This document shows, piece after piece, positions 1-64,000 of a stretch of DNA of 64,000 nt. The translations under genes and the position numbers were made by a program. The notes below the pieces were generated by a model, which worked only from the letters and a program-made list of their open reading frames with translations, did no database searches and had not been told where the DNA came from. Each line of letters opens with the position of its first letter. Positions within the stretch are counted from its first letter, which is position 1. The DNA is taken from assembly GCA_029964075.1 (NCBI GenBank), contig CM057140.1, positions 12,232,643-12,296,642 on the forward strand. The letters are read 5' to 3'. This stretch comes from Patiria pectinifera. Lineage: Eukaryota > Echinodermata > Asteroidea > Valvatida > Asterinidae.

Positions 1-1959
1 CAGGCCCATATGCAGGCGAATCAAAGCCTGCAAGATGTGGACGGGTTGTACAAGAAAATCAAAGCTGCTATGATGTGGTGAGAGTTCAAAGAGTGACGAC
101 TGCTTGTGCAGGGAACTCACAGAATGTGAGACTGTGATGGGCTTCACAAGAGATCAAAGTTGCTATTGACTCTGTGCGCCAACAAGAGAGGGCGCTTTTT
201 AACCACTTTCTAGAACCCATGGACAGGACGCACGTGATGTATCCGCTAGATCGCGTACCTATAGCGCGGAGTACGCCCCACTTATGTTATTCTGAATGTA
301 CACAAAGCCTTTTAGCGTCTTTGCGTGAGCATCAGGCATCGCCAGCAATGCGTTCTCTCCCAGTGGTCTTCCCCAACTCTCCTTTTCTTACCGTTGAGGG
401 GGTGCTTGTGCACGGAGCCCATGCTGTGCCACTGTTGTAGTCAAGTCCATCACAAGTCATCTGGTCCTAAGTCAACTCACAAGCTATTCAAATGAACTGT
501 GACAAAGGCATTCCAGTGTTATTGTTCATCCCCTGTGAGCAGACTTGTGATGGGCTCAACTGCAAAATGTGCTGTGGTGAGAGAAATTTGAAGAATGACT
601 TTGTCAAACGTGTGGAAAGTACTGGAATACTGGAGCCTTTTTTTTTTATAAAACCTGAATCTTGAATAAAATAACTTGGGACGGGTTCTACACCTCCCAA
701 TCCATTTCCCAGGTTCTTTGGAACCACACACACCATGGGTTCGAGATCTTAACTTTCTTAACAACAATCAACTCTTGAATAATTTTGCAATACATATTTG
801 TGGTTAACAATGCAAACCATTAACGTCAATGGCTGCGACTCGCAAAGCATTATTTCTGTCGTGTGCGTACCCATGGGTGTATTCCCCGTACACAATCGGT
901 TTGTGCAGTGTGTGGCTTTAATCTTAAAGTTTCAGATCTTGTGCCTAGTCCATGAGGTGCTCTCTATTGTTTGCTATCGGAGTCTGTAAGTAAAGGAACA
1001 CATTTTCATGATTTTGTTTGTGTAATCCAGGTAAAATGCTAACTCTTTGGAATCATTTATTTTCCGTCCAATTTACAAAAGTAAAGTTTATATATTACAC
1101 GTTCTGATATAGTTTGTACATGTATATATTTGCAGAATAGTAATTGTATAGAGAAATGGCAAATACACTTTATCTAAGATAGCAGAGATTTATTTTCGTT
1201 ATTTCTTTTAGATCATTGTATTTTTTGAAAGGCAATGTTAACTACATGAGAGCCGTCCAGTTTTTTTAAGAACACATTTTTTTATCACGATGAAAATACT
1301 TCCATTGCAATTGACATTAATAAATAAATGAATAAATGATCTACAGCCAAACACTTCATAATTTGCGCTCTGTATTTCCCCGTTTGTCTCACCCTAAAAG
1401 TCGCTGCATCGCACAGTGACAGTTAACCGATAAACAAGGGGGAGAATAACCCGACAACCACCCCCCCCCCCCAAAAAAAAGGGTCATCAGTTTTATATTT
1501 TCTTCTACAACCCCAAGCACACTAGAGTGTAAACACCTTCAATCGTGGACCTTCTATTGTCTTTCTTTTGTTTATAATTTAACTTTTTAGGAAGAGCTCC
1601 AATTGTTTGTACACGATCGTCAATCGTGGACCCTATTCTCCTCGTTTGTTTGAATGTGTAAACAAGTACATGTACACCTGTTTTCGTGGCAAAAAGAGAT
1701 TGGCGCGGACAGCCAGGAACTTCGGAAATCTCTTTATCTCGTTCTCATAAAACCGAATGGTTCTTGAGTCTGGAGTGCTGAATGGTAACACAACCGGTGA
1801 AAAACGCACGTGCTAATGAACAGATGCTATCACCGGCTACCGTAATCCCGCCCACACCTATAGACCTTTAGCATTCAGAGCCATTTTGAGGAATCTTTAT
1901 TTATGTTTGATCATGTTTTGCTCATTGGAAGAAAAGTCTCATAACGTTGTGAGAGAAAT
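1..1959. other. No gene recognised
   Basis: I see no gene here. The only open frames are short (the longest 88 codons near position 174) and show neither a recognisable family motif nor splice-supported extensions. There is a C-rich then A-rich run near 1460-1480. A short phrase about a repeated CAATCGTGGACC motif occurs twice, near 1540 and 1620. An unrecognised exon or UTR of a gene lying to the left cannot be excluded. Confidence 0.5.
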
Positions 1960-2036
1960 GGTCGATGTGGGGCTAACCCACGACCTTCGGGTTATCGGCA
2001 CGATCCCGACGCTCTACCGACTGAGCTAATCGACCC
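1960..2036 (-). repeat. tRNA-Ile-like relic, copy 1
   Basis: Read on the minus strand this has a tRNA layout. The acceptor begins GGGTCGA and its 3' side is TCGACC. The A box is TAGCTCAGTCGGTAGAG, and the anticodon loop CCGATAA gives anticodon GAT (Ile). The T arm is damaged: two bases are missing in the T loop compared with the copy at 25339-25407. A functional tRNA is therefore unlikely. It lies about 610 bp downstream of the GPCR at 2645-3655, the same position the second copy holds relative to its GPCR, so it predates that duplication. Confidence 0.6.
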
Positions 2037-2644
2037 TTGCGTCCGTTGCGCGTCGGTTTACCCTGCTAGATGGAGATCGATTTCGATGAAAGTACTGTAG
2101 AGCGAACTTTGTTCAAAAGAGGCGGGCGGAGACTGAGTGATGTAGGCCTGCATAATATGAAAAGGGAGATGGCGTAACTTTTTTCAAATTGGGACCATTT
2201 TTGTGTACGGAACACCGTCATTTGTGTATTTAGTAACGTAAACACAAAAGTTGTAATTCAATTCCTTGGCGAATTCGCATCACTGACTGTCTTGTTTTTC
2301 TCAGGAAATGCCCCAAATAAGCAAACCAACACTTCGCAAAAGTTAAATGTAGGCATACATGTACATTGTACATGTAAACGGAATTAAAGGGCATTGTTAA
2401 TAAGTATGAATAATACATGTACATTGTACTTTAAGTTAATAAACAAGAATTTATATTAGCTCATGCCCATTACCGACGTCATAAACGAAATAGAAGTTGT
2501 ACCTCAGGGGTATGCTGCTACAATATTGAAAATAAACATGTTTAACATGGATTGATAACTACTCTTTTGGTAGGCCTAACCAAAACTAACTTGTACTGAT
2601 TGTTTCTTCTCAAGTTATGTCTCAGTGCGTCTGTGTGCTCAGTT
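2037..2644. other. 3' flank of GPCR 1, no gene
   Basis: AT-rich DNA with no coding evidence. It aligns by eye with 25408-26044, downstream of the paralogous GPCR; for example, both carry a block with AATAAACATGTTTA followed by a TTGTTTCTTCTCAAGTTAT phrase just before the receptor stop. It is the shared 3' flank and probable 3' UTR of the duplicated receptor. Confidence 0.55.
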
Positions 2645-3655
2645 TTACAACCGTCGCCGGCAAAGTAGTTTTCGAGCAGTTTTTCTAAACTCCCGAGCCA
2701 TGAAAAAATAGATAATAACGTCCCACCAACTGTTGCAGAGGCACACCCAACTCGTGATAAACTCGACCAATGGATGAGAGACCTCTTTGGTGACGTAGTT
2801 CAGGGTGGATACGACGATGTAAGGGGTCCAGGCGATACAAAATGTGACAGTGATGAGCAAGCACATTCTCAGCGCACGACTGTTCGGCACGGTTCCTCCA
2901 CTGAAGGCGCTCGCGTTATTCCGTAATTTGGCGAGGCGTTTTTCATGTTTGTGAGCCACCAGATAAAGTTTGGTGTAGCAGCCGATCAAAACAACCGCCG
3001 GTAAAAACAGTAGGCAGCCATTGCTGACGATCAGTCGAAAAAGGTTCGCTGGGGAGACGCGGGACCATATGACGTTACACAAGACGGCATCGTTACTGTA
3101 AGCAACATCGCCACTGTTAGCGTATATTGCGGTACTCGTAGACAAAGCGAGTAAGACGGCCATCGCGATGATGACTAGCGCGCGTTTTGTGGAGATCAGT
3201 ATGGGATGACGAAGAGGGTACAGCACAGCTAGAAGACGATCTACCGTGATGAGGATCGCAGCATTGACGCAACATACATTGATGGACATCATGACTAGAC
3301 CGGTTGCTTCACAGAGAAACTGTCCGTAGGGCCAGTAATTCAGAGCAGCAGGTGGGACGTACAGAACGGAGAAGCCACCATAAGCCAGGTCCCAGACAAT
3401 GACGTTACAGAGGAAGGCTTTGGAGCTTGGTGGAAAACGGGGCGAGTCAACAAATCGTATGACCGTTAGGCTGAAAATATTGCCGATGATGACCATGAGA
3501 GAGTTGACTATGATGAAAGACGTCCGTAGAGCTCTCTGGAAAGAGTTGTAGGTGTTCTCTGTGTCTAAGTAATCGTCTAACGATGGAGTCACATCGGTGA
3601 TACATCCCGAGCCATTTCGAAGCACGAGCTCCGTTGAGTTAATTGCAGAAGCCAT
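2645..3655 (-). CDS. Class A rhodopsin-like GPCR 1, intronless
   Basis: A single 336-codon exon encodes a seven-helix G-protein-coupled receptor of the plasma membrane. Rough helices are TM1 46-68, TM2 80-102, TM3 115-137, TM4 158-179, TM5 206-229, TM6 263-287 and TM7 296-319. Class A landmarks are N59 in TM1, D89 in TM2, C115 paired with C193 in the second extracellular loop, P219 in TM5 and CIAWTPY at 273-279. Two landmarks deviate: DRL (139-141) replaces DRY, and NSWWDVIIY (308-316) replaces NPxxY. TM4 lacks the usual tryptophan. The outer N terminus has N-glycosylation sequons at N6 and N14, and a basic tail follows TM7. The start is the first ATG after a TATA box and repeat array. It is closely related to the receptor at 26045-27076. 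The ligand is unknown; lineage-expanded intronless GPCRs of this kind are typical of echinoderms and often presumed chemosensory. Confidence 0.93.
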   Translation of the reverse strand: MASAINSTELVLRNGSGCITDVTPSLDDYLDTENTYNSFQRALRTSFIIVNSLMVIIGNIFSLTVIRFVDSPRFPPSSKAFLCNVIVWDLAYGGFSVLYVPPAALNYWPYGQFLCEATGLVMMSINVCCVNAAILITVDRLLAVLYPLRHPILISTKRALVIIAMAVLLALSTSTAIYANSGDVAYSNDAVLCNVIWSRVSPANLFRLIVSNGCLLFLPAVVLIGCYTKLYLVAHKHEKRLAKLRNNASAFSGGTVPNSRALRMCLLITVTFCIAWTPYIVVSTLNYVTKEVSHPLVEFITSWVCLCNSWWDVIIYFFMAREFRKTARKLLCRRRL

Positions 3656-3682
3656 GACCTTGCAAGATTATCTCCAATTCAA

Positions 3683-3950
3683 GACAGACCAGTGCTGTAT
3701 ATGGAGTTTAGTTGTCTGTGGTCGACTGTCACAAATCAGGCTGCGTCAATGCTCGGTAAACTTGGAATCAGGACAGACCAGTGTTGTGATTGGTATCTGG
3801 TCGACTCTCACAAGTCGGCTGCGTCAATGCTCTGTATGTACCTTGGAATCAAGACAGAACAGTGTTGTATGGGGAGTCGACTCTCACAATTCGGGCTGCG
3901 TCAATGCTCTGTACACCTGGAATTCGAGACAAAGCAGTGCTGCAGTTGTG
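3683..3950. repeat. Promoter-proximal tandem array of GPCR 1
   Basis: Three and a half diverged direct repeats lie between the GPCR start codon and its TATA box. Unit starts, marked by GACAGACCAGTG or close variants, are at 3683, 3772, 3853 and 3928, giving periods of 89, 81 and 75 bp. Each unit carries a GTCGACTCTCACA-like phrase and a GCTGCGTCAATGCTC phrase. The paralog at 27117-27240 has about two units. The array would fall in the 5' UTR if transcription starts at the TATA box. Confidence 0.8.
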
Positions 3951-4017
3951 GCAGTTCGCTGAGAGACGCGCTCTCCTCGGCTTTACCAATTATCTGCTCA
4001 TCAGCTTGAGTCTTGTG

Positions 4018-4023
4018 TATATA
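4018..4023 (-). promoter_or_regulatory. TATA box of GPCR 1
   Basis: TATATA on the minus strand, 363 bp upstream of the ATG. A surrounding phrase (CCA, one to three bases, TATATAC, then CAAGA/TCAAGA and a TCATCAGC/TGATGAGC block) is shared with the paralog at 27300-27305 although intervening repeats differ in number. Conservation around the TATA supports a real core promoter; the transcription start was not determined. Confidence 0.55.
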
Positions 4024-5239
4024 TTGGCTTCGACTGAATGCCGTTGCCTCGCACTGACCATGCCTGTATACGCAAAGTCCCCGTAATATTGAACGCTCAG
4101 CGAGGAAGAAGAGATGTCATTTATCATTAGGATTGAAGTCACTGACAAACTGCAGCCACTACCCATCCATTAACGTAAGTAACTTGGTAATAAGGGAATG
4201 ACAAATGTCGCTAATTTACAAGGCCACTCAGTGAAGTTCGACCGTTTCAACAAGTGGCGTCCACAGCAAACAACCTCATCACTCATAGACAATAACGGAG
4301 GCGATGCAGCAGGAGCGTGGACGTTTAGAGTCGTCAGACGATGCCTCATGGGACTGAATCAGACTTAGCAAGATTTATGTTATCAGTGTAGAATCTTGCC
4401 TATTTTCTGTTGCAAAATTCCATCTGCTCCAATGCAGACCGATCTTTAACTATTCTCTTCATTATTGTCTTCGGGGAAAATCGTCTCATTCAATCTTGAA
4501 ATTTCCGGCTGTTTTCTTCGGCGCGAGAATTGGTTGAAGTTTCTTTAACCTGCTGCAATGCGACCTCCGAAGAGCGTCCAGAAGATTTTTGTCTGTACCA
4601 AATGTTGAATGCAGTTTCGTCCGTCTGTGTAGTTTCTTAAACATGCGAAGGTATCACTGATGAGGTGTGGATGATTGCAGTATCGAAGACTTAATTTGAA
4701 TATTGAGGATATTACATTGTGATGATATTAACTTGCTGTTTCTATATCAGATATTTTACTCTGTTACATTCAGTGCAGTTTATTTGAAATGTCAACTAAT
4801 GGTAATCAGCATCATCAACATCAATTAGTATTCGCTCGTGTTTCCCGTTCTAATTAACCATCCGATCCATGGATTTGATTGGATGACATTGGACCCGCAT
4901 AATTGTAGATGCCATATTCCAATCTATCATCATTACTGTGTTTCCCTTATTGATGAACTACGGTCCTTTTAAATAATGAGATTAGAAGTCTGTAGAATGT
5001 ATGCATTATAAGCTTCCGGTGCTAATGCACGTTATTTCTTTCGCCCAAGTATATGCACCTCGACTACGGGTACTGCTCGGCCCCTTCTACACAGTTTGGT
5101 GATGGACGCAAACAATACCAACATTTTGATTATGATGAAACAAAGACTTTTGTGTGTTTTTATTTACGTATTTGTCTCTGTCAATTGCATACTGTACACC
5201 ATGTCAAGCCCATACTCGTATACTATACAATGCCCCCTT
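4024..5239. other. Intergenic between GPCR 1 and channel A
   Basis: No coding evidence. Parts align with 27310-27770 and 29423-30349, the matching interval between GPCR 2 and channel C, so this is the ancestral, uninterrupted form of that spacer. The site near 4370-4380 (AGATTTATGTTATCAG) corresponds to the point where the nested element at 27780-29422 sits in the other copy. A possible poly(A) signal for channel A, AATAAA on the minus strand, is at 5159-5164. Confidence 0.6.
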
Positions 5240-8200
5240 TCAAGCGTTGTTATCGCCAGACTTGGTCCTTTTCGAGCAGCCAAACCTCTTGTAGAGAGTA
5301 AGGAAGATGAAATCAAGCCATTCCACTATAGTGATCAGGCTCATACCGCATAGTAGACCCATGTAGCCGCCGATGTCACCTGTCAATTAAATTAGAAGGG
5401 GACTGCTGATTAGTCAGCAGCTTAACTGTTACCCTTCATTCGGCGGGAAACTTGGACAGCATCACCAAAGCGTTGAATGGTGGAGCAAGGGGCCAATCCA
5501 AGGTTAACCAAAACACCTTTCCTCTAGCTTTGTTAGAGTACCAAGTACCGGAGGCGTTTATGTGCTACCAAAAACAGACTGACCACATCCCGCTTTAAAA
5601 GGCATTTCATGTTTTATGGATGGACTTACCTTCGAAGTGTTCCAGCGTGTAAGCTTCCTGCTGCTGGATTTCCATATACATTATTTCCTCCATGAAAACG
5701 TACACATCCATAAAGTTGTCCCTTTCAAGAGAAAAAAAGAAACCCCAAGATTGGATGTTACATTTTAAAGTGTAGAGCTTCTTCGAATTTACAGCCAACC
5801 AGTTATTAACTGGGCTAATCAACAACAAACAAATCATATCCAAAATGGAGATTGAGAGAGGCAGGTTTTGGTACTTGCCTCGCCTTGCAACTCAGAAACC
5901 CGGGTTCGAATCCACATCAGGCTGGCATATGGATTGAGTTTCCACTCCCCGGCCCGCCTGATTCGGAGGATTTCCCTGAACTATCTTTTCAGGGTTTTTC
6001 CTTTCATCTCAAAGGTAAACATTGTTGTTGGTAACATGAGGACCAGCCCAACGTTGTCCTCTTTGAACCGTTCTCACTCACTTTTACTAGAGACTGAGCT
6101 TAAACTGGGGCCTTATTGGCGCAAAAGCTCCCTTGGGACCCTGAGTTCCCCTCACACTTCGACCTCTTTGACCATACAACTTGGGTCAGCTAATTGACTT
6201 GTCTTATAAGTCTTGTTTTCGTTTTCGTCTCTGTTTCATCAGGCTTCCGACCAACAGCGTCTGTGTACTTTTTCTCTTTGTGTCATCACCCGAACCAACT
6301 AAACTAAATCAGCTGCTAACCATGCAACTAATTCACCAACCACAATCATAACATCCAATCCGATACGAGTCGTTTTACCTGATAAACTCTGGGGGTAAGC
6401 CGTACTTCTCTCGTAAATCTCTGTCGATATGTTTAGTCGGCCAGAATGACTGCGACATCACGCTTTCGTACGTCAAGCTCTCACAAGACATCTGACAGCT
6501 ACACGCATCGCTGTCCCAGACAAACTCATCTTAAAGATCAACAAATTACAGGGTCAGGTGGCCCAAATATTCAAATACATTATGCATAATTGGTAACACA
6601 GACTTCGGGTGTTTAAATATTAGTTAGCTGATATTGATGTTAAAGTACACATACAGTCGCCAAAATATTGACTAATGTTGTGTGCTCTCGCGTCTGCATT
6701 TCGGTGTTTGGTTCTGATACCGGTCAGGTTAATAATAATAATAATCGGCATTTAAGAACGCTCTTATTAGTAAACTAAATCACAGCGCTTACAGTATTAT
6801 TATTACCCCTGATCATTGGGCCAATTAAACATTTCAAATACCATCTCAGCTCCCTGGGGAGTATGCAGCTCGATGCTGCCTGTTAGGCGCAAACAAGCTT
6901 ATTCAATCACAATAACCATCTCTGCCCTCACAGGTACCCATTTACTCCTGGGTGGAGAGAAGCAATGAGTGACAAAGTGCCTTGCTCAAGGGCACACGCA
7001 CCATGACCCCCGCCAGGACTCGAACCCACAACCTGCAGCTTTACCCACAGACCATGAATCCAGTGCCCTTAACCACTAGGCCACAGCACTCGTACTAATA
7101 CATTCTTTTTAAAATTTTTGGAAATGGATTTTGTTACAATTATGAACGACAACCAATTATTTACCTTCGTAATGGTAAAGACACGTCACTTGCTTTTCAA
7201 CAGAGCATATCGGTGCTTTGACTGTATAAGGCAAAATATGAACAGAGATTTAATGATTAACATTTTCACATGCATGACAGTTCATTTTGTTTCAGAAGCC
7301 CATAGCATCGAGGGATGAACAAAAAGAAATGAATACTTTTGTCAGTTCATTTGTACATAGCTTAATGTCTCGTGACTTGAGACCAGACGACTTGTGATGT
7401 ACTCGACCTTACCTATGATATAAATATTTTTTGACCAATTAATTTGCAGCATCCAAGACACGACACAACAATATCTCATCCTACCTGGCCATCTGTAGTC
7501 ACGGCATCCGCAGTGGTCGACAACGAATCGAACCATACACTCAAAATGACAGGCCGGTACGGAATATTTGTAGGGGAACTCTCTCAGTTGGCTGGATGTC
7601 GTGCAATTAGACTTGAACGGTGCTTTTAGGCTCCTCACCTTAGTATTAAAAACAATCAGGAAATCAACTAGTAAAAGAAAAAGCGATATAGGAATGGATT
7701 TGAACATGCGAACTCCGATACATCGTATCTGAGGTGGATCCGGACAGTGTTCTGGGTCGCTGATTTGAATCCCTCTTTGATGACTGTTTGCGTAACCTCT
7801 TGCATGAAGACTTAAGGGAAATCCTTTTTAGTTTGTTCTGTATATCGTCAAGACTTACCAACTGCTTTCGCACAGCAATAGAGATTTCGTAGCCTGGAGT
7901 CAGAGACAACGCAAACTCCTTGACGATGGGAAACTCGCCCTGTGGATGCAGCATGACCTGTGATAGCCAACGAAGTCGGTCAAAAATCGATCAGACTAAT
8001 CATTTTAACCAATTATTTGGTTACCAGAAGGCCGATATAACGGTGATACAGTCGACGTAGGCCTACGGGTACATCGACTATACATGTAGCACTAAATGAT
8101 CGTCATTTCTTATGTAATCCATAAATCGAGTATTCGCGTTTACGTTTGTTTAATACGATATACACAATCTACTTTGATATCTGGCAAATTACGTGATCAG

Positions 8201-27076: not shown

Positions 27077-27116
27077 GACCTTGCAGGAGCATATACACTT
27101 GTCTTAGAATCAACAC

Positions 27117-27240
27117 TTACCAGTGTTGTATGGGGTTTAGTTGTCTGTGGTCGACTCTAACGAGTCGGGCTGCGTCAATGTCCTGTACACTTGTAATCAA
27201 GACAGACCAGTGTTGTATGGGATTTAGGGGTCTGTATTCG
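27117..27240. repeat. Promoter-proximal tandem array of GPCR 2
   Basis: About two units with a period near 87 bp (ACCAGTGTTGTATGGG at 27119 and 27206) and the shared GTCGACTCTAACGAGTCGG phrase. It is homologous to 3683-3950 but shorter; this explains most of the 139-bp difference in TATA-to-ATG distance between the two receptors. Confidence 0.75.
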
Positions 27241-27299
27241 GCTCCAAGTTGCGCTGTGTCAGTTCGCTGAGAGACGTGCTCATCAGCATGAATCTTGAG

Positions 27300-39004: not shown

Positions 39005-42000
39005 ATGTTCAGAAAGAAGCCAAACGAGAAAGGTACGTTTATCTCTTTGCGACTGCGAGCGTTATTTGATACTGTCTTCTTCACTATCAAGTATCATGAC
39101 TATCCTGGCCATGTCCCATGATCACGATGATCACTGCCAAGCCCACGCATAGGCCTAGCGCCTACTTACTTAGCATGCTTTGTAAATGTTAATGTTGTTG
39201 TTGATGTTCATTAACCATGTTCACACATACTAGCCTAGAGGCTAGGACTTTTTGCCAATGGCATGTTACGGTAATTTTATTGAGTATTTCATTTATGCAA
39301 AATGGGTTTTCTTTATTTGTCACTGTCACTTTTGTCAGTTTCTGTCTTTATTCATGTAGTAATAGTATTGGGGGGCTATTGCTTTTTAAGCATGCCATTT
39401 TGTCTCCATTGCCATTTTCTTTAATGCCATTTTGCATTTTTTGTGTGTCTATTATGGCCCTAGCTTACTTCCATATTAAATTAAATTAATTTTTGTGAAT
39501 GCTTCTTTCCAATAAGTCACACGCATTGTCCCTGTCATGTACATTCTCGTATTGTCTATGTTTATACGGAGTCCCTTTTCGTTGTGTACCTTGTTAATTG
39601 TGTTATTGTTTTTGTTGTTCAGGGGACTCGCACTCGACAAGCTTGCTTTTTGTGGGTCCCCCCATACATTATTTCTTATCTTATTTGTTTTAACATACCT
39701 ATTTTATTTTGAAGAATTATATTTATATTTTTGCATTGTACCATGAGGTGGAATAAAGTAAAGTAAAATAAAGTAAAGTAAAGTAAAGTAAAGATGCCGT
39801 TTATATATCGTAGTGGTTATCGATACAGCAACCGTAAATGCTATTTTTAACTGTTGTGTTATCATTATGGTATTGCAAAATAACCATTGCAAATCTAGAA
39901 GTAGGCCCTAGAATTAGTTATAAATACCTGTCCAACCAGAACGCTTTGGTAGCTTGATTAGTTACAAAACCATGGCGGGGATGCAGGTGCGAAACCGCTG
40001 CCACGGTGCTTCTTTTTTTTTTTTTTTTTTTTTTTTTTTTAGTTTTCTTTACTTTCATGTGTTAATGAATTTTTTTGTTTTTATTTTAAGTAGATTTCAT
40101 TTTCTTCTTCGTAGTCCGTGGCTTTGGAGTTTTTTTGTATTTTCCCCGAAGGGTGGGGAGTTTGTCACTCAAAAATGACAATCCCCACGTATTGGGTGGG
40201 GCAACCCGAGGGGGGGGGGGGAAACAATTGATAGGTGCATAATGTGTTTACATTTTTATAATACGTATGTGTCATTTGTCAACCAAATGGTTCTCAGACT
40301 TTACTTTTCCCTTTTAAAAATCCTTCAGGGCCGTGGTTGATAGCAGATTGAACCATGTGTCAATACCATTCTGAACAAGAATAGAGACTTGTCCAAGTTG
40401 TTACACTAATGTCAACACCAACATGTTTCGTGACCCTTTATTATTGCAGAAGTGATGAGGAAAGTAGACAGAGATCTGAAGAACACACAACGAGGCTTGG
40501 AACGAGACCGAGCCAAACTAGAACGAGAAGAACAGAAAATTGTGAGTCTAGTCCACATAAGGGAACACGCTTTACTGCTAGAGGGTAGACAGGGTGACTG
40601 ACGAACATTATATAAGTTAACTGTATATCAGTTAAAAGGTGGGAAACCATACTCAACCAGGAACAAAACACTGCTTGTTTTGGTACAGAATTTGCCGTGT
40701 ACGGAATGAAAGTTTGGAAGGTGGAATGATTCAAGCTGGAAAACGTTGCCCGTGAAATTGTTATAGTTTGGCCCATATTTAATGTTTTTTTTATATTCGG
40801 TTTCATTTAAAATATCACAAAATAAAAAAATTTTGATTGTTTTTATTCTTAGACACTGGAAATCAAAAAGGCTGCCAAACAAGGAAACAAACAGGTAAGT
40901 TGAAGAGTTCAAAAATAAGGTTTTGTCCTTTCTCTTTGTGATCCATTTTTATCTGTATCAGGCACATTTTGTGGTAGATGCAACTGTTACTAGATAATAT
41001 TCTTTTGAAAACACTGCTTCTATTGAGCATGGGTCTCACAAAGTGATATTCATCAGGCCTGAAGCCACAGACTTGGCAAAAAGAATACGCAGTCTGCCTA
41101 AACAAATTTATTGTAATTTTTTGTTATGCTGCACGTGTTGTTTGCAGGCCGCAACTGTATTGGCCAAGCAATTGGTGAATCTAAGGAAACAGAAGACACG
41201 GATGTATGGAGCAAGCGCCAGGGTCTCATCCGTCAATACACAGGCAAAGGTGTGTACCCAAACGGGTGTCATTACTGGGTGTGAGTCGGGAGTTTAGGGT
41301 TTGTATGTACCCAAATGGGTTTCATTACTGGGTGTGAGTCAGGAGGGTTTGGGTTTATGTACTCAAACGGGTGCCATTACTGGATGTAAGTGAGTAAGTT
41401 TAGGGTTTGTATGTACCCAAATGGGTTTCATTACTGGGTGTGAGTCAGGAGGGTTTGGGTTTATGTACTCAAACGGGTGCCATTACTGGGTGTAAGTGAG
41501 GAAGTTTAGGGTTTGTATGTACCCAAATGGGTTTCATTACTGGGTATGAGTCAGGAGGGTTTGGGTTTATGTACCCAAATGGGTATCATTACTGGATGCG
41601 AGTGAGGAGGTTAAGGGTTTGTATGTACCCAAATGGCTTTCATTACTTGGTGTGAATCCAGAAGGTCTTGGGTTTATGTACCCAAATGGGTACATACTGG
41701 GCGTGAGTCAGGAATAGTTTGGGTTATGGGCATAAATATAGGGTGTGAGTCAGGAGGTCCCAGTTAACATTATGTACCCAAAATGGGTATAAATACTGGG
41801 TTGTGGGTGAGGGGGATTTCGGATTCATGTGCCCAAAAAGGTATCAGAATTCACTGGGTGCAAGTAAAGTTTGTTGGAAAGGGGCTTGGTCAGTGCCTAG
41901 TGAATTTTCACTTGGTGCAAGTGAACTTGATACGGGGTTGATTTTTACCAATTCACCCTCCTCTGCTGTCTGATCAGTTGTGGACATTCAAAAAAATCAA

Positions 42001-50076: not shown

Positions 50077-50843
50077 CCCAGATATGTAATTGAAAAATAT
50101 CGCTTTTAAGAATTGTCATCGACAAGACCTAATGTTGAATACTTTACTTCTAATCACTGTCGCAAAACCTCGTATATTTAAAAGTTGATATTGGCGTCGT
50201 TTCGCCACGTGTTGTGATCAGATAACCAAATTGTAAGAATTTGTATGAATAATCATACGCCAGTGTGCGCTCTCGGTGATAGTGATCCACATACAAGATC
50301 ATTGTCATGTCATCTGGTGGTCAGTCAGCATCTCTTCAGTCAAATATTAAATCTCCCGTGAACCAATCAGCTGCATGGAGCGATTTTGAACACGTGACAT
50401 CGACTGCGTTCGTTTGTGCTCTTGATCAAAGCTAAACTTAATATTCCCCAGCTTCTTGGAGCAGGAAAAAACACAATGTATTTAGCCTAAACACACCAGC
50501 AACATGAGTAGCAGCGGCATTGCAATTACATGTATTCTCTTCAGCAGAACCGTTGTAGCAACGCTTGTAAATTCATGCGGTCTTCATTTTTTTTCAATGA
50601 CGTTGTCAAACTGCATGGGTACTTTTCGAGTACGGACCTCGACGTACCCAGCTGATCGACAGAAAACTAAATGCCATTTCTTTCTGTCACAATGTGTACT
50701 TGTACCAAACCAGATGCATAGAAGTGTGTACTTTGTCTCGCGTGATCTGGCAAGATTTGGATACATCAAATTGTAGTTAATTTAAACTGGGAACAATTTT
50801 GACTTGCCTGACGACTTCGTTAGGATCTTACACTGCACGCACC
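50077..50843. other. Spacer between GPCR 4 and SLC5A copy 1
   Basis: No gene. It holds the GPCR 3' flank and the cotransporter 5' flank, and aligns with 60360-61907. The TTAA at 50106-50109 is the unoccupied target site corresponding to the MITE at 60409-60865. A CCAATCAGCTGCATGG phrase near 50363 recurs twice in the second copy. Confidence 0.6.
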
Positions 50844-53800
50844 ATGGCTGGCACTAAGGGAGTAGACACGCTAGATATTGTGATAATCTGCGTGTATTTT
50901 GTTGTCGTCGCTTTAGTCGGCTTGTGGGTAAGTAAAGTAACCGTTCAATTTATAACCATTTCGGTTTACATCGACAATCAGTTCTAGTTGATAGTTATCA
51001 GCGGTGGGAGTGTATTCTCTGGTTGAGAAACGGAACACTTGTTTAATGAGTAAGCCTACAGGGCGTTTCTGGAGAAATACTTCATGGTTTGTCTAATTAC
51101 TTGTAAACAGGGACATTTTCGAAAATAGAATATGGTAGACTACAGATTTTACCGACACTGAAACGAACTCTTTCATGTTTCCAGTTTTGCAAGTCGTTAT
51201 CTTACCGTTATAAAATATAGGTTACAATTGGTATGTTGATTTGTTGAAATTTTGTGTCGCCGATTTTTTTTGGCACCAACTATATACCAATATTCTGTCA
51301 TGATTGTGAGGGAATATTTACGACGACATATTTACGAAGTAGACTCGTGAAATGGCAAAGGTCGTTGGGGTAAAACAATTCGGGGACCCGAGTGAGGTTC
51401 AGGGTGTTGGTGTCCTTGAGCAGGATTAATTACCTCAATTTTTCTGCCCAAACAAATAGATGTGTTTGAGTTGATTGGCGTGTGAAGTTGATTATCCGGC
51501 AAAAAAACATTGATATGCATGTAGATATTCTTAACTTTTTGGACATTATTTCTGATCGCATCAATTATTATAACACTGTTTGCTTTAACCCTATTTGTTC
51601 AGTCGATGTACAAGTCCAAGCGAAGCAATGCGAAGGGATACTTTCTAGCGGGTAGAACGATGACATGGTGGCCGGTACGTTTCTCTTAAATGTGATCGTT
51701 ACTTTTCATTTTCAAGTTATGAAATGAGTTTTCATGAACTCTGGCGGCTCTGTATTGTCCTTGAGAGCTGTTGAGGAAATGTTTATTTTTCGCAGTTACA
51801 CAGCCTATAGCCAAAGTTGAGAAACCAAAGGAGCTCAGTAATGGTTTAGAAGGCATTTTATATGTTAGACTTAAATGGGAATTGACATACAGATGCGGAA
51901 ACCTGGAGAAGTGTCAAAATCCGATATACTAGTGTAAAATTTTGTTAAGATCTCGCATGAACACAACAATGACATACTATACATAGCAAATCGTGTTTAG
52001 GACTATTGCATTATTTCCACTTCATAGGAGAAAAAATGATGAACTTTTCCAGACACCATGAACATATTGTTCCTGTGGTTTAGCGATGTCATTTCTGAAG
52101 GAAAACAAAATCATATCAGGAACTTTGATTGGACTTGTTTTGCAGGTTGGCGCTTCCATCTTCGCCAGTAATGTCGGGACGGGTCACTTTATCGGAATGG
52201 CCGGTACTGGGGCAGTTTCGGGCTTGGCTGTCGGTATCTACGAAGTCCAGGCAAGATGTTTTTTTTAAAGAGCAAAATCCGAAGAATTCGGAAACAAATT
52301 CAAAACGCTCATTTGAAAACTGTCTCACCTTAAAATAATGACTGTTAAAAATTTGGGTTGCGAAAACGAATTACATGTATGTAAAGAAGCTATGATTACA
52401 TGCTGGTAGTTACAGCAATTTCTTTGTTTGTGTGGTTTTTCGATATTTCAGAGTAAAACTCACAGGGTGACAAATCAATGTGTTAAACGATGTTGCGTAG
52501 CAAAATTTAATCGTATCCCTTTTGTGAGTTGTGTCTTTTCTAATAAGGACAGTACTCATTATCTCGTCCTTTCGATTGTGCACTGTTATGATTTAGGAGA
52601 CATTTTATTCATAGGCGTATTTAAACGTGTTTTAATTCAGTACAGCGGACAGTGGTTCTATGCTACGATGGATTTATTTGTTCAACAATTATCAATCTAA
52701 ATTTTAAGCAAAGCTGATCGTTCCTTTAAAACATGCACCTGTAATATATACCAGGCATACATTACAGGTGCATGTTATTACGGGTCCCGTGTTCTGTTTT
52801 TTTATGTCGAGCGTGTTTGTCGGCACTACGTTTACCATGCGCGTATGGGCAAGCGCCCACCATAAAATGTCACTCCCAACAGTGTATGTTAAATGTTGAT
52901 TAATTAATTGACGGCGCTCGCTCTTTTAAAGCGGATAAGTGCAGACGAACATTTATTGCCATTTCCAAAGAAGATGCATGAGCAGATTCTGAAAGGCACT
53001 TTCAAAAGTAAATCAATGTCCGAGCTAATACATTGAGCCATTAATCACTCCCTGTTGATCTACCGTCATTTTTGGTAAAAAGATTGAAGCATGGCGCTCC
53101 CCGTATCGCTTATAACACGTGAAGTACATTTTCTTGTTTCCTTATCACTTAAAATTAAACCGTTTCCCGGTGACTTCGTTGTTGATGTTTTCAATTACTT
53201 TGCGTCGGTCAAGAAATGCTTGATGGACCGGCGTGCGAAAGCCTCGAAGTAATGATTTGAGAGAGAGAAATGAACTAATGTTGGTATAGTATATGCTTTT
53301 GTCAACATGTTGAGTTTCTTTACCGAACGAAATTTAAAGGAACACCATGTCCTGCAACAAATAAATGTGCTTGTTTGTTTTTGCAGGCCTTTATACAGTT
53401 TTAAAAAGTGGTTTTAAATGGCACGCTCCAGTTCAGAAATTGCACACACTATTCAGAACGAATTAGGAGCGTCCCGTTCTTAATTCAAAAGTTGACATTT
53501 ATTTATCGATGACTTGTCGAGGGGCGACTTTTTCGTGCAATATCTCATAGGAAAGCTCATAGCTAATCTAAGGCTGGAAAATTTTCAATTAAATTTGAAT
53601 ATCTATTTTCTAGTTGCCACACCCCCAAAGCACTTATACATCAACTTTATAGTGTATTGACAACTGAAACTATAGTTTTTCCCCTTGTCGTGTTCAGGCT
53701 ATCTACTATGTCCTCTTGCTCGGGTGGGTTTTCGTCCCCGTTTACACTTCTGCCGGGGTAAGAATAATAATAAGAAGTTTTTTTAAAATGTCAAGACAAT

Positions 53801-56800: not shown

Positions 56801-59800
56801 ATTCAATAAACTTGGGGTCCACTTTTTTCCCTGTCCCTGTTACATCTGACATCTTCGATTTCATAATTCTGATGCACTCCTTAATGTAGTCGTCCTCCAA
56901 GAGTGATTATAAATAGCAAACTGCCTATAGTTTGAAGTCATTCTGAATGATACTTGCATGGCAAAATACCAAAGTAAAAGGGATAATCTTATTCATAAAC
57001 TTCAAAGACATGAATCTGTACTGAAATATTGTTACGATTTCAATACACTCTAAAAACTGTGTTTAGCAATTAAACACAATCTCGCTATCACTTTGTAAAT
57101 ATGATGAGAAGCTAAACATCACGTGTCCAATTCCTAAACATTTAACTATCCATCAATACTCTAAACATGGTTAGTATTTACTACATGTTTTCAAATTAGC
57201 GATAACAAGCAAGTTTTTAGGAAAGTGTTTGATTGCCAAACGCAGTTTTACAGTGAACGTATAAGCATTGTTGGTCAGCCCCTTCCATTTCCCGTCAAAA
57301 AGAAAAAAAAGATCAAACGAAAGTACACTCTAAAAACTCCCTGCTCAGTTCGGCTATTTGCTGTGCCCCGTGATACAACATTTTTTTTATGTTTTTACAG
57401 TGTTCTTTTCAGAGCCTTAAGACATTCTCGAGTGTAAGACTCGTTGACTGTCTCAGACCAAACAAAAAGTTGTACTGAAGATTTTTTTCTCTCTCTCTTG
57501 ACAGATGATGTTGCATGCGTTGACCCGGCCGAGTGTAAACGAATCTGTGATAGTGAAATAGGATGCAGCAACATCGCATACCCGAAGCTGGTGATGGAGC
57601 TTATGCCCAGTGGTAAGAAGTTTTTGTGTTGCATAAAAATTATATAGATGGCACTTTGGTGCCGTTTAACGGTGAATGACATTACCTATGCCTCTCCTTT
57701 ACTCAAGTACCTTCATGCACAATTTTTGGACCGTCTTGCATGACGCTGGTTCCCTCAAGTTCCCTGTGTTCAATTTCAGGTGTCCGTGGTTTGATGGTGG
57801 CGGTCATGATGGCCGCCCTCATGAGTTCACTAACGTCCATCTTCAACAGCGGTAGCACCATCTTCACTATGGACATCTGGCGTCGAATTCGACCGAAGGC
57901 AACCAATAGGGAAATCATGGCCGTTGGGAGGTGAGCTGAGAATGATTTCAGTATTTTACATCACAGAAAGCAGAATTAAAACGTGTTGCTCGAAATTTGT
58001 TCGACATACGGCGCTGCTAATGACGTCACGAACATTTAACACCCAAATTGCCGAGGCACGTGGCAATCTGTAGAAAGTGACGTCATTTGAGAGAGACCCT
58101 ACAAAGTCGGAATCCATTTTACCGTTTCCATGGAAGGTTGACGTAACATTCAGAGAGTGAGACAGGCATCAAAAAGTCAGAAAATCACTACCGGTACCTT
58201 TATTTAAATTGCAGGTTGTTTGTGGTCTTTTTGTTGGCTGTCAGCCTCATGTGGGTACCCGTCGTCCAATCGTCGCAATCGGGACAATTAGTCGACTACA
58301 TCAACTCCATGCAGTCCTACTTTACTCCGCCCATCTTTGCCTGTTTCGCCATGGGCGTGGCCTGGGAGCGAACCACAGAGAAGGTCCGTTAATATTAAAC
58401 GGGATCAGAATGGGAGGGTGATTATACAAAATGGCGCGTCTATACATCAATGCAGTCCCACTTTACCCCGCCTATATTTGCCTGTCATTGGCGTGGTCTG
58501 GGGACGGACTACGTAGACGACCCAATATCTTTAAATGGGAACAGGGTGGGGGCGATTGTATGAAGGGGCGTGTCCAAACACTTCAATGCCATGCAGTCCT
58601 TGCCTGTTTCACAATGGGCGTGGCCCGGGACAAACCACGGAAATGACCCATTATCCTTGAATCGGTCCAGGTGCGGGGCGATTGTATAAAGGGGCGTGTC
58701 CAGACACTACCATGAAATCCTACTTTACTCTCCCTATCTTTGCCTGTTTCACCATGGGTGTGGCCTGTTTCATCTGACTCTGGGACCAGGGGCGGGGCTA
58801 TTCCATATAGGGGTGGGTCCAGATACCCAAATTCAATACAGTCCTACTTTACTCCTCCCATCTGTGCCTCCTTTAAGAGATCAGGTTGTGGGACGTGTCC
58901 AGACTCTTTCTTACAAATCAACACTTAGCCTATGAAATCGACCTACAGTTTTAAAGCCTTCAACTGCATGTCCATTTCTATTTCCAGTTCTTAAGTATTT
59001 TCCTTTGTTTTGTCAGGGTGCCTTTTGGGGGCTCATCATCGGTATAGCCCTGGGTGTGCTGCGCATGATCCTTGACATCATCTACCCAGCACCGCCTTGT
59101 GGAAGTCCAGACACCAGACCGGCCGTGGTGTCCAAGATTCACTTCTTATACTTCAACTGCATCGTCGCTGTCATCTCGTTGTCAGTAACAATTGTGATCA
59201 GCTTATTGACACAGAAACTACCAGATGAATATGTGAGTTACTTTATGCGACACAAACAAATTACTTTCTACCCAAAAAAATAGATTACGTTTTGAGAAAA
59301 AAAAGCTGCATTGAGCAACGAAATGTACCATTTTGAAAGCATTTCAGCAAAAAATATTAATGTATATCCCTTCTGAACTTCGATGTATAGGGTATAAGTT
59401 ACCTCTATCAAAATATTTGTATAATAATTATTCTTTATGTTATTTAAACAACCGTTAGCGTAATGAGCAACAATGAACAGATGGTATTTTCACGATTTCA
59501 ACTATCTCAATGAATATTCATGCATGACAGGTGGTCGGGATGACGTGGTCCACACGTGGCAAACGGCCATTGGCTCCCTCTGGAAGTAGCAGGAAGATTG
59601 TGCCGGTAGAAGAGGAAGAAGACGAGGAAGTATCGGACGATGAGGTTGACAAGAAAGGTGTGTGCCGCCCTCAAGAGTCAAAATGCAGCAAATTAATTTC
59701 AAACTTTGTGGGATTACGACTTAAAAATAGGTATAGGACATGAACTTGAGTGTATATTCCGCAAATGTTATCAAATTTACAACTTGTAAATCTCGTGTTT

Positions 59801-60128: not shown

Positions 60129-60370
60129 GCTCTTAATTGGCCCAGCAGCTCTTAACTTCTGGCCGTATGGAAAGATTATTTGCGACACCAGCCACGTTGT
60201 GGATTCTTGGATTTGCTCCTGTTGCGTCAATGCTGCCGTTCTCATCACGATCGACCGCCTCTTGGCTGTATTCTACCCCCTCCGCCACGCCACAATCATC
60301 CCAAGAAGGAGAGAAAATTAAATCCAAAGAGCAACGAAATCTGACAACTCAATCACGTCTGTCAAAATAA
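60129..60370 (+). pseudogene. GPCR relic with two large deletions
   Basis: It reads from the end of TM2 (GPAALNFWPYGK) through TM3 and DRLLAVFYPLRHATIIPRRR, then jumps to the last few codons of the receptor (a TTQSRLSK tail in a shifted frame) and its 3' flank. Compared with GPCR 4, about 800 bp (upstream DNA, TM1 and most of TM2) and about 570 bp (TM4 to the C terminus) are missing. The preceding 100 bp match 48380-48480 upstream of GPCR 4. It occupies the GPCR position in the second GPCR-SLC5A unit and cannot encode a receptor. Confidence 0.88.
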
Positions 60371-60869: not shown

Positions 60870-61907
60870 ATAAGTGTCATCGACAAGACCTCATGTGGAC
60901 TGCTTTACTTCTAATTATCGTCGCAAAACCTCACATGTCTGTATATTAATAATAATTTATACCAAATTGTATAAAGAATCATAATTTGTATAACCATACG
61001 CCAGTGTGCGCTTTCGGTGATGTTGATCTACATACAAGATATTTTTTTGTGTCATCTGGTGGAAAATTAACATAGCTTTAGTGAAATATTAAATTGATAA
61101 ATTAACCTTAGAAAATAATTCTCATCGCCCGTTAACCAGTCATGCAGCTGCATGGAGCGATTTTGAGTACGTGACATCGACTGCGTTCGTTTGTGCCCTT
61201 TATATAGCACGTCAGAGCTTTAACTTGGTATCCCCCCCCCAAAAAAAAAACCCCACGACGTACTCAGCCTAAACACACCAGCGCAAGTAGCGGCTGTATT
61301 GCAATTATTCTTCAGCCGAACCGCTGTAGCAACGCCACTGTATGTAGATACAGGATAATTGTCATGTCATCTGGTGGTAAATTATAACATCCCTTTAGTG
61401 AAATATTTAATTTATAAATTCTAATTAGACATTCTCATCTCCCGCGAACCAATCAGCTGCGTGGATATCGACTGCGTTCGTTTTGCTCGTTAGCACGTCA
61501 AAGCTCTAGCTCAATAGTTCCAGAGCTTCTTGGAACAGAAAAAAACACTTCATGACAGTTGTACTTAGCCTACACACACCAGCAGAAGCAGCAGCGGTAT
61601 TGCAATTATTCAGCCGAACCGTTGTATATAGCAACGCTTGTAAATTATGCGGCCGTCATTTTTCAGCGACGTTATCAAACTGCACGGGTACTTTTCGAGT
61701 ACCTATCCGGCTGATCGACAGAAAACCAAATAAATCTCTTTTCTTTCTGTCACAAAGTGTACATGTACCAAACCCGATGCATATCTAGTGTGTACTTTGT
61801 CTCCTGTGGTCTGGCGAGCTTTGGATACATCTAATTGTAGTTAATTAAACTGGGAACAATTTTGACTTGTCCAGTCGACTTCGTTAGGATCTCACACTGC
61901 ACGCACC
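60870..61907. other. Spacer upstream of SLC5A copy 2
   Basis: No gene. It aligns with 50110-50843 but contains an extra internal duplication of about 300 bp: the CCAATCAGCTGC/CGACTGCGTTCGTT segment and the GTGAAATATTAAAT segment each occur near 61080-61190 and again near 61390-61490. The duplicated stretch is the original GPCR 3' flank and cotransporter promoter region. Confidence 0.55.
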
Positions 61908-64000
61908 ATGGCTGGCACTCAGGGAGTAGACACGCTAGATATTGTGATAATCTGCTTGTATTTTGTTTTAGTCGTCTTGGTCGGCTTGTGGGTAAGTAAA
62001 GTAACTGTTCAATTTACATGTATAACCATTTCGGTTTTCATCGACAATCAGTTCTAGTTGATATTATCAGTAGTGCGAGTGTATTTCTGGTTGAGAAACG
62101 GAAAACTTGTTGAATAGTATACAAGGTGCTTTCTGAGGAAAAAATTCGTGGTCTGCTTACATTACTTCCAAACAGGGACATTTTCGATAATAGTTTATGG
62201 TAGACTACAGATTTTATCGACACCCGAAACGAACTCTTATATTGGTTCTATAGTTTTGCAAGGCTGCCCCAAAATTGGGTCAGTTGTAGCGTTATCTAAC
62301 CGTTATCAAATATAGGTTACAAATTGGTATGTTGATTTGTTGAAATTTTGTTTCGCCGAGTTTGCTCCAACTATACATGTTCCAACTTATTGATTATAGT
62401 CGAGGGAATGGAACATTCCATGTGGGGGACTATACGACCCGGGCACGAGAGATTTACGAAGTAGAGACTTGTGAAATGGCAAGGGTCGTTGGGTGAAGAA
62501 AACAAGTCGAAATCTCCCAATAAATTAAATAATTTAAGATTGAAGTTCAGGATCTTGGTAGTCCTTTTACTGCCCAAATAAATACATGCCCATTGTGTGC
62601 CTAAGAGCACCGATACGCATGTGGTGTTCTTAAGTTCAAAGATTGTTTCTGATCGCAACAATTTTATAATAACAATGTTTGATTTATCCCCATATGTTCA
62701 GTCGATGTACAAGTCCAACCGAAGCAATGCGAAGGGATACTTTCTTGCGGGTAGAACGATGGCCTGGTGGCCGGTACGTTCCCCCTACCTTAATGTTTGC
62801 ATTGTACACGTAGGCCTAATTACTTTTCATTTTCAAGTTTTGACATGAGTTTTCACGAATACTGGCGGATTGTCGTGGCACTGCCCTTGAGAAATGTTGA
62901 GGAAATGCTTAGTTTGTTCGCAACTTTAAGAAGATGAGGAAATCAAAGGAGCCCATAATATTTAGAATAAAATCTCAAAATGTTAAACTTAATTAATTGG
63001 AATCGACCTACTTATGCGGAAAACAGAAAAGGCGCCGAAGTCTTTCCACAAAATGTTTTGGCTTAAACTGAAGAGCAAGTGTAAAATTCAGTCCACCATT
63101 TATGATTTCTTTTGCACCAAAATGCATATTTGATAAGATGGTCCATCGTGTTTTCACTTCGACTGAAGAAATAACATTTTTCCAGATAATATTAACATCA
63201 TATCCCTGTGATTTAGCGATGCCATTTCTAACAACATAATTGGCTTGAGCTTGGATTGGACATCTTTTGCAGGTTGGCGCTTCCATCTTCGCCAGTAATG
63301 TCGGGACGGGTCACTTCATCGGCTTGGCCGGTACTGGGGCAGCTTCAGGCTTGGCTGTCGGTATCTTCGAAGTCCAGGCAAGATTAAAAAAAACAACCCA
63401 GAATTCTGAAACAAATTTAAAACGCTTATTGAACTGTCTCACCTTAATGAAGAAGCTGGCCTGCATCCCTTTTGTTTCTTAGAAGAACAGAACTCGTTAT
63501 CTTGCCGTTTCGATTGTGCCTGTTATTTGGAGAAATTCAATTTCATAGGCGTATTATTTAAACGTGTTTCAATTCAGTACAGTGGTTCTATTTTACGATG
63601 GATTTATTCGTTAAACATTATAATTGGAAATTATAAACAAAGCTGATCATTATTTCCAAACAGGTACTTGCAATACATACCCCTGTTTTTTAAAGTAATT
63701 ATGTTGAGCGTGTTTGTCAGCATACGTTTACCACGCGTATATAGGTATAAGCGCCAATCATTTAATGCCACTCGCAACAGTGTATGTTAAACGTTGATTA
63801 ATTAATGGACGGTGCTCGCTGTCGTAAAGCGGACGAATACAGACGAAAATTTATTGCCATTTCCAAAGAACATGCATGAGCAGATTCTGAGAGCACTTTA
63901 CGAAGTAAATCAATGTCCGAGCTAATACATCGAGCCATTAATCACTCCCTGTTGATCTACCGTCATTTTTGGTAAAAAGATTAAAGCATGGCGCTCCCCG
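61908..64000 (+). CDS. Sodium/solute cotransporter, SLC5A family, copy 2 (partial)
   Basis: First three exons of a second cotransporter: 61908-61991 ([13 protein letters not shown]..., first helix), 62702-62773 (ending GRTMAWWP) and 63273-63377 (the sodium and substrate signature GASIFASN...GHF). Lengths of 84, 72 and 105 nt and phases are identical to copy 1. Only a few residues differ over 87 codons (for example T-to-Q context at residue 5, V18-V20 region, K34 to N, M50 to A, M69 to L, V75 to A, Y84 to F), all conservative, so the gene looks functional as far as it can be seen. Exon 3 again ends at a GC donor (63378). Exon 4 is expected about 600 bp beyond the window end. It is part of the tandem GPCR-SLC5A duplication. 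Confidence 0.88.

Follow-up and report, generated by a model that had tools for sequence, protein, structure and literature searches.

A tandem array spanning an exon-intron boundary in an SLC5A gene of Patiria pectinifera and in its neighboring paralogue

The SLC5A gene and its surroundings

The DNA analyzed here is a stretch of 64,000 nucleotides (the window) from the genome assembly of the echinoderm Patiria pectinifera (613.5 Mb in 1020 contigs), where it forms part of contig C12. Within this window lies a gene of the SLC5A sodium/solute symporter family, referred to below as copy 1, one intron of which is largely filled by a tandem array. The gene was assigned to the SGLT type by joining the three exons around the array and comparing them with PDB chains, which gave 202 to 215 bits for SGLT1 chains and 179 bits for SGLT2 chains, the best match being SGLT1 at 215 bits. 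The relevant parts of the gene are as follows.

57780..57930, + strand: upstream neighboring SLC5A exon (GVRGLM...AVGR); Pfam SSF, 57.7 bits for 57779-57928; splice sites by eye
58215..58383, + strand: SLC5A exon from which the array was seeded (LFVV...TTEK); Pfam SSF, 34.8 bits, and the joined-exon match to SGLT1
58384..58385, + strand: authentic donor GT (AAG/GTCCGT), phase 0; read from the sequence, with a GT in the same place in copy 2
59017..59232, + strand: downstream SLC5A exon (GAFWGLIIG...PDEY); protein match to paralogues; splice sites by eye

Searched by itself, the downstream exon (59017..59232) gave no Pfam match. The intron that carries the array extends from 58384 to 59016 (633 bp, positions read from the sequence). 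Its position is constant in the family, all 11 SLC5A genes compared having their protein matches interrupted at one and the same residue, and a GT at the position of the authentic donor was also found in all five paralogues inspected.

The next gene downstream is a second SLC5A gene, copy 2 (locus L009). Between the two copies, we noted a fragment of a rhodopsin-type GPCR (window 60142-60321; 7tm_1, 31.1 bits), and the regions upstream of both copies are themselves duplicated (50291-52333 and 61348-63447). Elsewhere in the window, TRF reported a minisatellite at 41253-41713 with a period of 52/106 bp, ∼4 double units, and 91% matches. Tandem repeats of ∼80 to 90 bp (3711-3942 and 27094-27261) also directly precede what look like the start codons of two paralogous minus-strand ORFs; these repeats differ in copy number between the two sites, and the ORFs appear GPCR-like by eye. 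There were no Rfam matches at gathering scores within the window.

A boundary-spanning array in copy 1

An earlier note on this DNA, made from the letters alone, had proposed that a 141-bp unit starting inside the exon and crossing its splice donor is repeated four to five times down the intron. Self-BLAST, a repeat search, and unit alignment confirmed that this boundary-spanning tandem array is real. The repeat unit measures ∼141 bp and comprises the 3′-most 85 bp of the exon, the donor, and ∼56 bp of intron, and five such units, the exon end itself being unit 1, follow one another head to tail up to ∼58907 according to the unit alignment. The array thereby occupies 524 of the 633 intron bases.

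58299..58438, + strand: unit 1 (source), holding 85 bp of exon end, the donor, and ∼55 bp of intron; repeat search, self-BLAST, alignment, and shuffles
58439..58579, + strand: unit 2 (approximate limits), with a 5-bp gap in the exon part and the donor GT changed to GA; repeat search and alignment
58580..58700, + strand: unit 3 (approximate limits), with an exon part lacking ∼19 bp and the donor GT changed to GA; repeat search and alignment
58701..58824, + strand: unit 4 (approximate limits), in which 58 bp of the exon part match the exon at 87.9% and the donor block is deleted; self-BLAST and alignment
58825..58907, + strand: unit 5, terminal and truncated, with the donor block deleted, orthologous to the unit that closes the copy 2 array and ending in GTCCAGACTCT; alignment

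Unit 1 could begin up to ∼16 bp farther upstream than 58299. The unit anchors lie near 58298, 58439, 58580, 58701, and 58825, with spacings near 141, 141, 121, and 124 bp; the repeat search returned four copies with spacings of 141, 262, and 124 bp and found the unit start three times, at 58298, 58580, and 58825. In the self-BLAST of 58200-59020, the segment 58306-58745 aligned with 58447-58869 at 67.8% identity (E value of 4e-31), while shorter matches ranged from 72 to 88%, among them 58 bp at 87.9% (58307-58364 versus 58710-58767) and another 40 bp at 87.5%, so that piece identities were 68 to 88% overall. Measured against their own first unit, the units were 71 to 83% identical. Where the duplication begins and ends, any microhomology seen by eye was too short to build a claim on.

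The homology of the later units to the exon part of unit 1, on which the earlier note had staked its view that the array began as a duplication of an exon-intron boundary, is borne out by self-BLAST and by dinucleotide shuffling. The 3′ part of the exon (58299-58383) matched the intron with a score of 82, which was reached by 0/500 shuffles (maximum, 24), and a reading of the similarity as chance or low complexity without homology is thereby refuted. The one point in favor of that reading is that TRF did not report the array at a minimum score of either 50 or 30, its sole row at 30 being an unrelated 9-bp repeat at 58262-58281; against it stand the shuffle scores, the BLAST E values, and the presence of the same array in copy 2, and we regard its probability as practically nil. 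The 5′ part of the exon (58214-58298) scored 16, a value reached by 404/500 shuffles, and is not repeated. As controls, the preceding exon compared with its own intron gave a chance-level score (reached by 471/500 shuffles), and the next exon compared with the array intron gave a score reached by 11/500 shuffles, which is itself slightly above chance.

At the protein level, the source exon is conserved relative to SGLT1/2 PDB chains and to ten other paralogues in the genome, whereas the intronic copies are truncated and their frames shifted. Judged from this comparison, copying went from the exon into the intron.

The array in copy 2 and its age

In copy 2, the exon is followed 157 bp on by one unit and then by a truncated third unit, the whole occupying L009:6228-6615. 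The unit number thus differs between the paralogues, five versus three, as counted in one sequence of each of these two genes. Within the exon from which the array was copied, copies 1 and 2 are identical at 153/170 positions. Their terminal units agree at 69/83 aligned bases and have in common a truncation, a ATCAGGTTG segment, and the array end GTCCAGACTCTTTCTT, and the flank after the array is still alignable (80/92 aligned bases identical, with 33 gap columns). The first units of the two genes are not plainly orthologous by sequence, since their intron parts differ more (25/62 bases) than does the preceding intron (72/246); it is the terminal unit and the end point that speak for a shared array. 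Because copy 2 has an array that closes with an orthologous unit and stops at the same place, the array, as far as these alignments tell, is older than the gene duplication that produced copies 1 and 2. Comparison with copy 2, which the earlier note had recommended, thus found an array common to both genes.

Other members of the family gave a different picture. In copy 3 (L010) and at L012 and L013, the DNA match to this part of the window is confined to the exon, and six further paralogues gave no match; a self-match across the exon boundary was found in none of nine further paralogues (copy 3 and eight others). The gene at L017 has a tandem duplication inside the intron, which does not cross the boundary. 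The simplest order of events would be that the array arose before copies 1 and 2 separated but after copy 3 had split off (or that copy 3 lost it), followed by the gene duplication and then by changes in unit number.

One unit of copy 2 is a mosaic that looks as if it had been overwritten from its exon. Unit 2 (approximately L009:6399-6468) is 94% identical to its own exon. Compared with that exon and first unit, its exon part has 4/69 differences and its intron part 25/67 (Fisher test, P = 5.8e-6), although the exon is under constraint. Set against the exon parts of units 2 to 4 of copy 1, which differ from the same exon at 37/200 positions (a count made without the truncated unit 5 of copy 1 and unit 3 of copy 2), the 4/69 is still low (P = 0.011). 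From the sequence, this closeness likely reflects exon-to-intron gene conversion or later re-copying. Continuing exchange between the array and the live exon would fit the first of these contrasts, which has the look of a conversion tract running from exon to intron, but seems to us rather improbable.

The earlier note had also held that the copies lost their donors, and this agrees with the alignment: the donor-homologous GT is kept in 0/6 intronic units, four in copy 1 and two in copy 2. Two of the six have GA instead, and in the other four the block is deleted, with break points that, by the alignment, differ in three or more lineages. Selection against decoy donors would be one reading of this pattern. 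The count behind it is suggestive only, as 41/141 dinucleotides, or 10/93 of those common to the first units of both genes, are kept by no unit. Donor loss need not have been selected, because the donor stretch eroded as a whole.

The earlier note had suggested that such arrays could create cryptic exons or affect splicing. Might the array thus supply functional cryptic exons or alternative donors and so lead to alternative or truncated transporter transcripts? The authentic donor is weak, ranking 6/52 among the GT sites of copy 1 (exon plus intron) and 3/38 in copy 2 by a crude matrix; by the same matrix, five GTs outscore it in copy 1, four of them in the array, as does one in the copy 2 array. 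Moreover, an acceptor-like ...ATGCAG/TCC recurs in the units, unit 2 of copy 2 keeps 65/69 exon bases, and the exon frame of copy 2 stays open through 107/132 intron codons, an extent reached by 38/2000 shuffles. However, this open frame is not common to copy 1, in which the third codon of the intron already ends the exon frame with a stop, so that any downstream donor would add a premature stop; the units also lack the 5′ half of the exon and its acceptor, and the donor itself is gone from all the intronic ones. We therefore consider spliced products of the array unlikely. Less likely again is a separate origin of the two arrays at a duplication-prone exon end, and to this we give only a slim chance. 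Such an origin would suit the young look of the copy 2 unit nearest its exon (the 4/69 differences above) and the divergence between the first units of the two genes in their intron parts, but against it stand the common truncation, ATCAGGTTG segment, and end point of the terminal units, along with the alignable flank beyond them. In addition, the intron part of copy 2 unit 2 is closer to units 2 and 3 of copy 1 (18/67 and 17/65 differences, respectively) than to its own first unit (25/67).

Interpretation, parallels, and frequency

We favor the reading of the array as a decayed boundary-spanning minisatellite that derives from tandem duplication and is effectively silent, with a probability of roughly 0.85. 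In an initial tandem duplication, the final stretch of an SGLT-type SLC5A exon would have been copied along with its donor and the adjoining ∼56 intron bases, and further unequal exchange or slippage would have built this into an array ahead of the gene duplication into copies 1 and 2. Thereafter, units would have been gained or lost (hence five versus three) and would have decayed by substitution and deletion, all six intronic units losing the donor over time. Most likely, the intron is spliced normally from the first donor, and the array would then have no positive function.

The earlier note called such arrays unusual, which is only partly right, for the same arrangement has been published for amphioxus and for human paralogues. 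In the amphioxus reports, tandem repeats spanning exon-intron boundaries are named "mirages" and are described in Adh3, in the globin genes BflGb6 and BflGb9, and in PGBD5, with TnC as cited there; the repeats lie on the acceptor or the donor side and vary in copy number, the globin units being 150 to 160 bp long, and the authors suggest that regular splicing is undisturbed (PMC3087553, PMC3902484). The SLC5A array resembles these cases in that unit 1 holds exon and intron sequence across the donor at 58384 and in that the units, five in number, are arranged in tandem. It differs in being more diverged (BLAST pieces of 68 to 88%), as the units of BflGb6 are given as 81 to 100% identical, although those of PGBD5 are called imperfect. 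High unit identity, at the level described for BflGb6, is thus a mirage trait that the SLC5A array lacks; we take the lower identity as a matter of age and not as a defining trait. As described, many but not all units of the amphioxus globins hold AG/GT, whereas the donor is lost throughout the SLC5A intronic units. The SLC5A array, moreover, is common to two paralogues, occurs in an echinoderm, and is known from genomic sequence alone.

Boundary repeats have likewise been described in human segmental-duplication genes, where internal tandem repeats at exon-intron boundaries are minisatellite-like (PMC2812944). The likeness lies in the presence of such repeats in duplicated paralogues, recent ones in human, with differing copy number; the difference is that the human repeats are able to give rise to novel introns and alternative transcripts, while the SLC5A repeats sit in an existing intron. 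In comparison with its paralogues, no new intron was seen in the array-bearing gene (protein-match breaks, 11/11). Repeat expansion can also create introns in Cryptococcus (PMC2395259), and the SLC5A case shares with tandem-duplication intron gain (the Rogers model; Cryptococcus) a local duplication that takes in a splice site. Unlike in that process, the intron is in the same place in all 11 SLC5A paralogues and none was gained. An echinoderm boundary array was not found by title among the literature matches listed, and a published case is possible, as most subscription journals lie outside that search. We class the SLC5A array as an old, decayed further example of a known phenomenon.

For an indication of how common such arrays are, we screened for repeats within 1.5 kb of 200 exon-like segments in 25 stretches (169,717 bases, some overlapping), namely, the 24 loci L009 to L032 plus 9.2 kb taken from the window, with L001 to L008 left out. 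Note that the segments came from matches between translated frames, some of them not being real exons, and that so few stretches do not allow a rate to be estimated. Besides copies 1 and 2, the screen yielded one splice-boundary case, in a tektin gene (L032), a tally that does not take in L018. For that locus, which holds a ∼323-bp satellite, a separate repeat search gave no exon-touching repeat among the matches listed. In the tektin gene, on the minus strand with an exon running from ∼2103 downwards by its apparent acceptor, the segments L032:2097-2181 and 2308-2390 are duplicates: a block made up of ∼78 bp of intron, the AG, and 7 bases from the start of the exon is present again ∼211 bp upstream, with the AG kept in both. 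It is a weak parallel, because only 7 exon bases are included. The flags raised at L017, L024, L027, L028, and L031 were rejected as splice-boundary arrays, as they represent intronic repeats, satellite, or a duplicated tail resembling a last exon.

Some of these loci have features of their own. At L028, the end of an SLC5A-family coding exon, seemingly the last one, and the sequence after it (5387-5653) recur ∼0.9 kb downstream (6302-6577) at 83% identity. Near SLC5A genes on contig C4, the L018 satellite extends over positions 1-5698 with copies 95 to 98% identical, and repeats similar to it in translation lie at L031:7453-9001. Tektin exons at two loci point to an echinoderm, L023 giving 203 bits with the sea-urchin structure 8SNB versus at most 130 with the next tektin chains, and L020 giving 172 versus 136 bits; L021, on the other hand, is closest to bovine tektin-3 (132 bits) and reaches 104 bits with the best 8SNB chain (8SNB is from sea urchin, 7RRO from cattle, and 7UNG from human; PMC10973386). 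COX1 was not found in the genome, nor was a match to GFP, the latter result carrying no weight because control genomes gave no match either.

What the SLC5A array adds is, first of all, an echinoderm case to a phenomenon described for lancelets (PMC3087553, PMC3902484). Since TRF can miss a diverged boundary array, such arrays may be undercounted. The two paralogues, with five versus three units, also lend themselves to asking how splicing copes with donors that have been duplicated. If exchange between the array and the live exon were real, mirages would be shown not to be peculiar to lancelets; and if it also ran from intron to exon, the intron would be a store of exon variants from which decoy donors are repeatedly purged.
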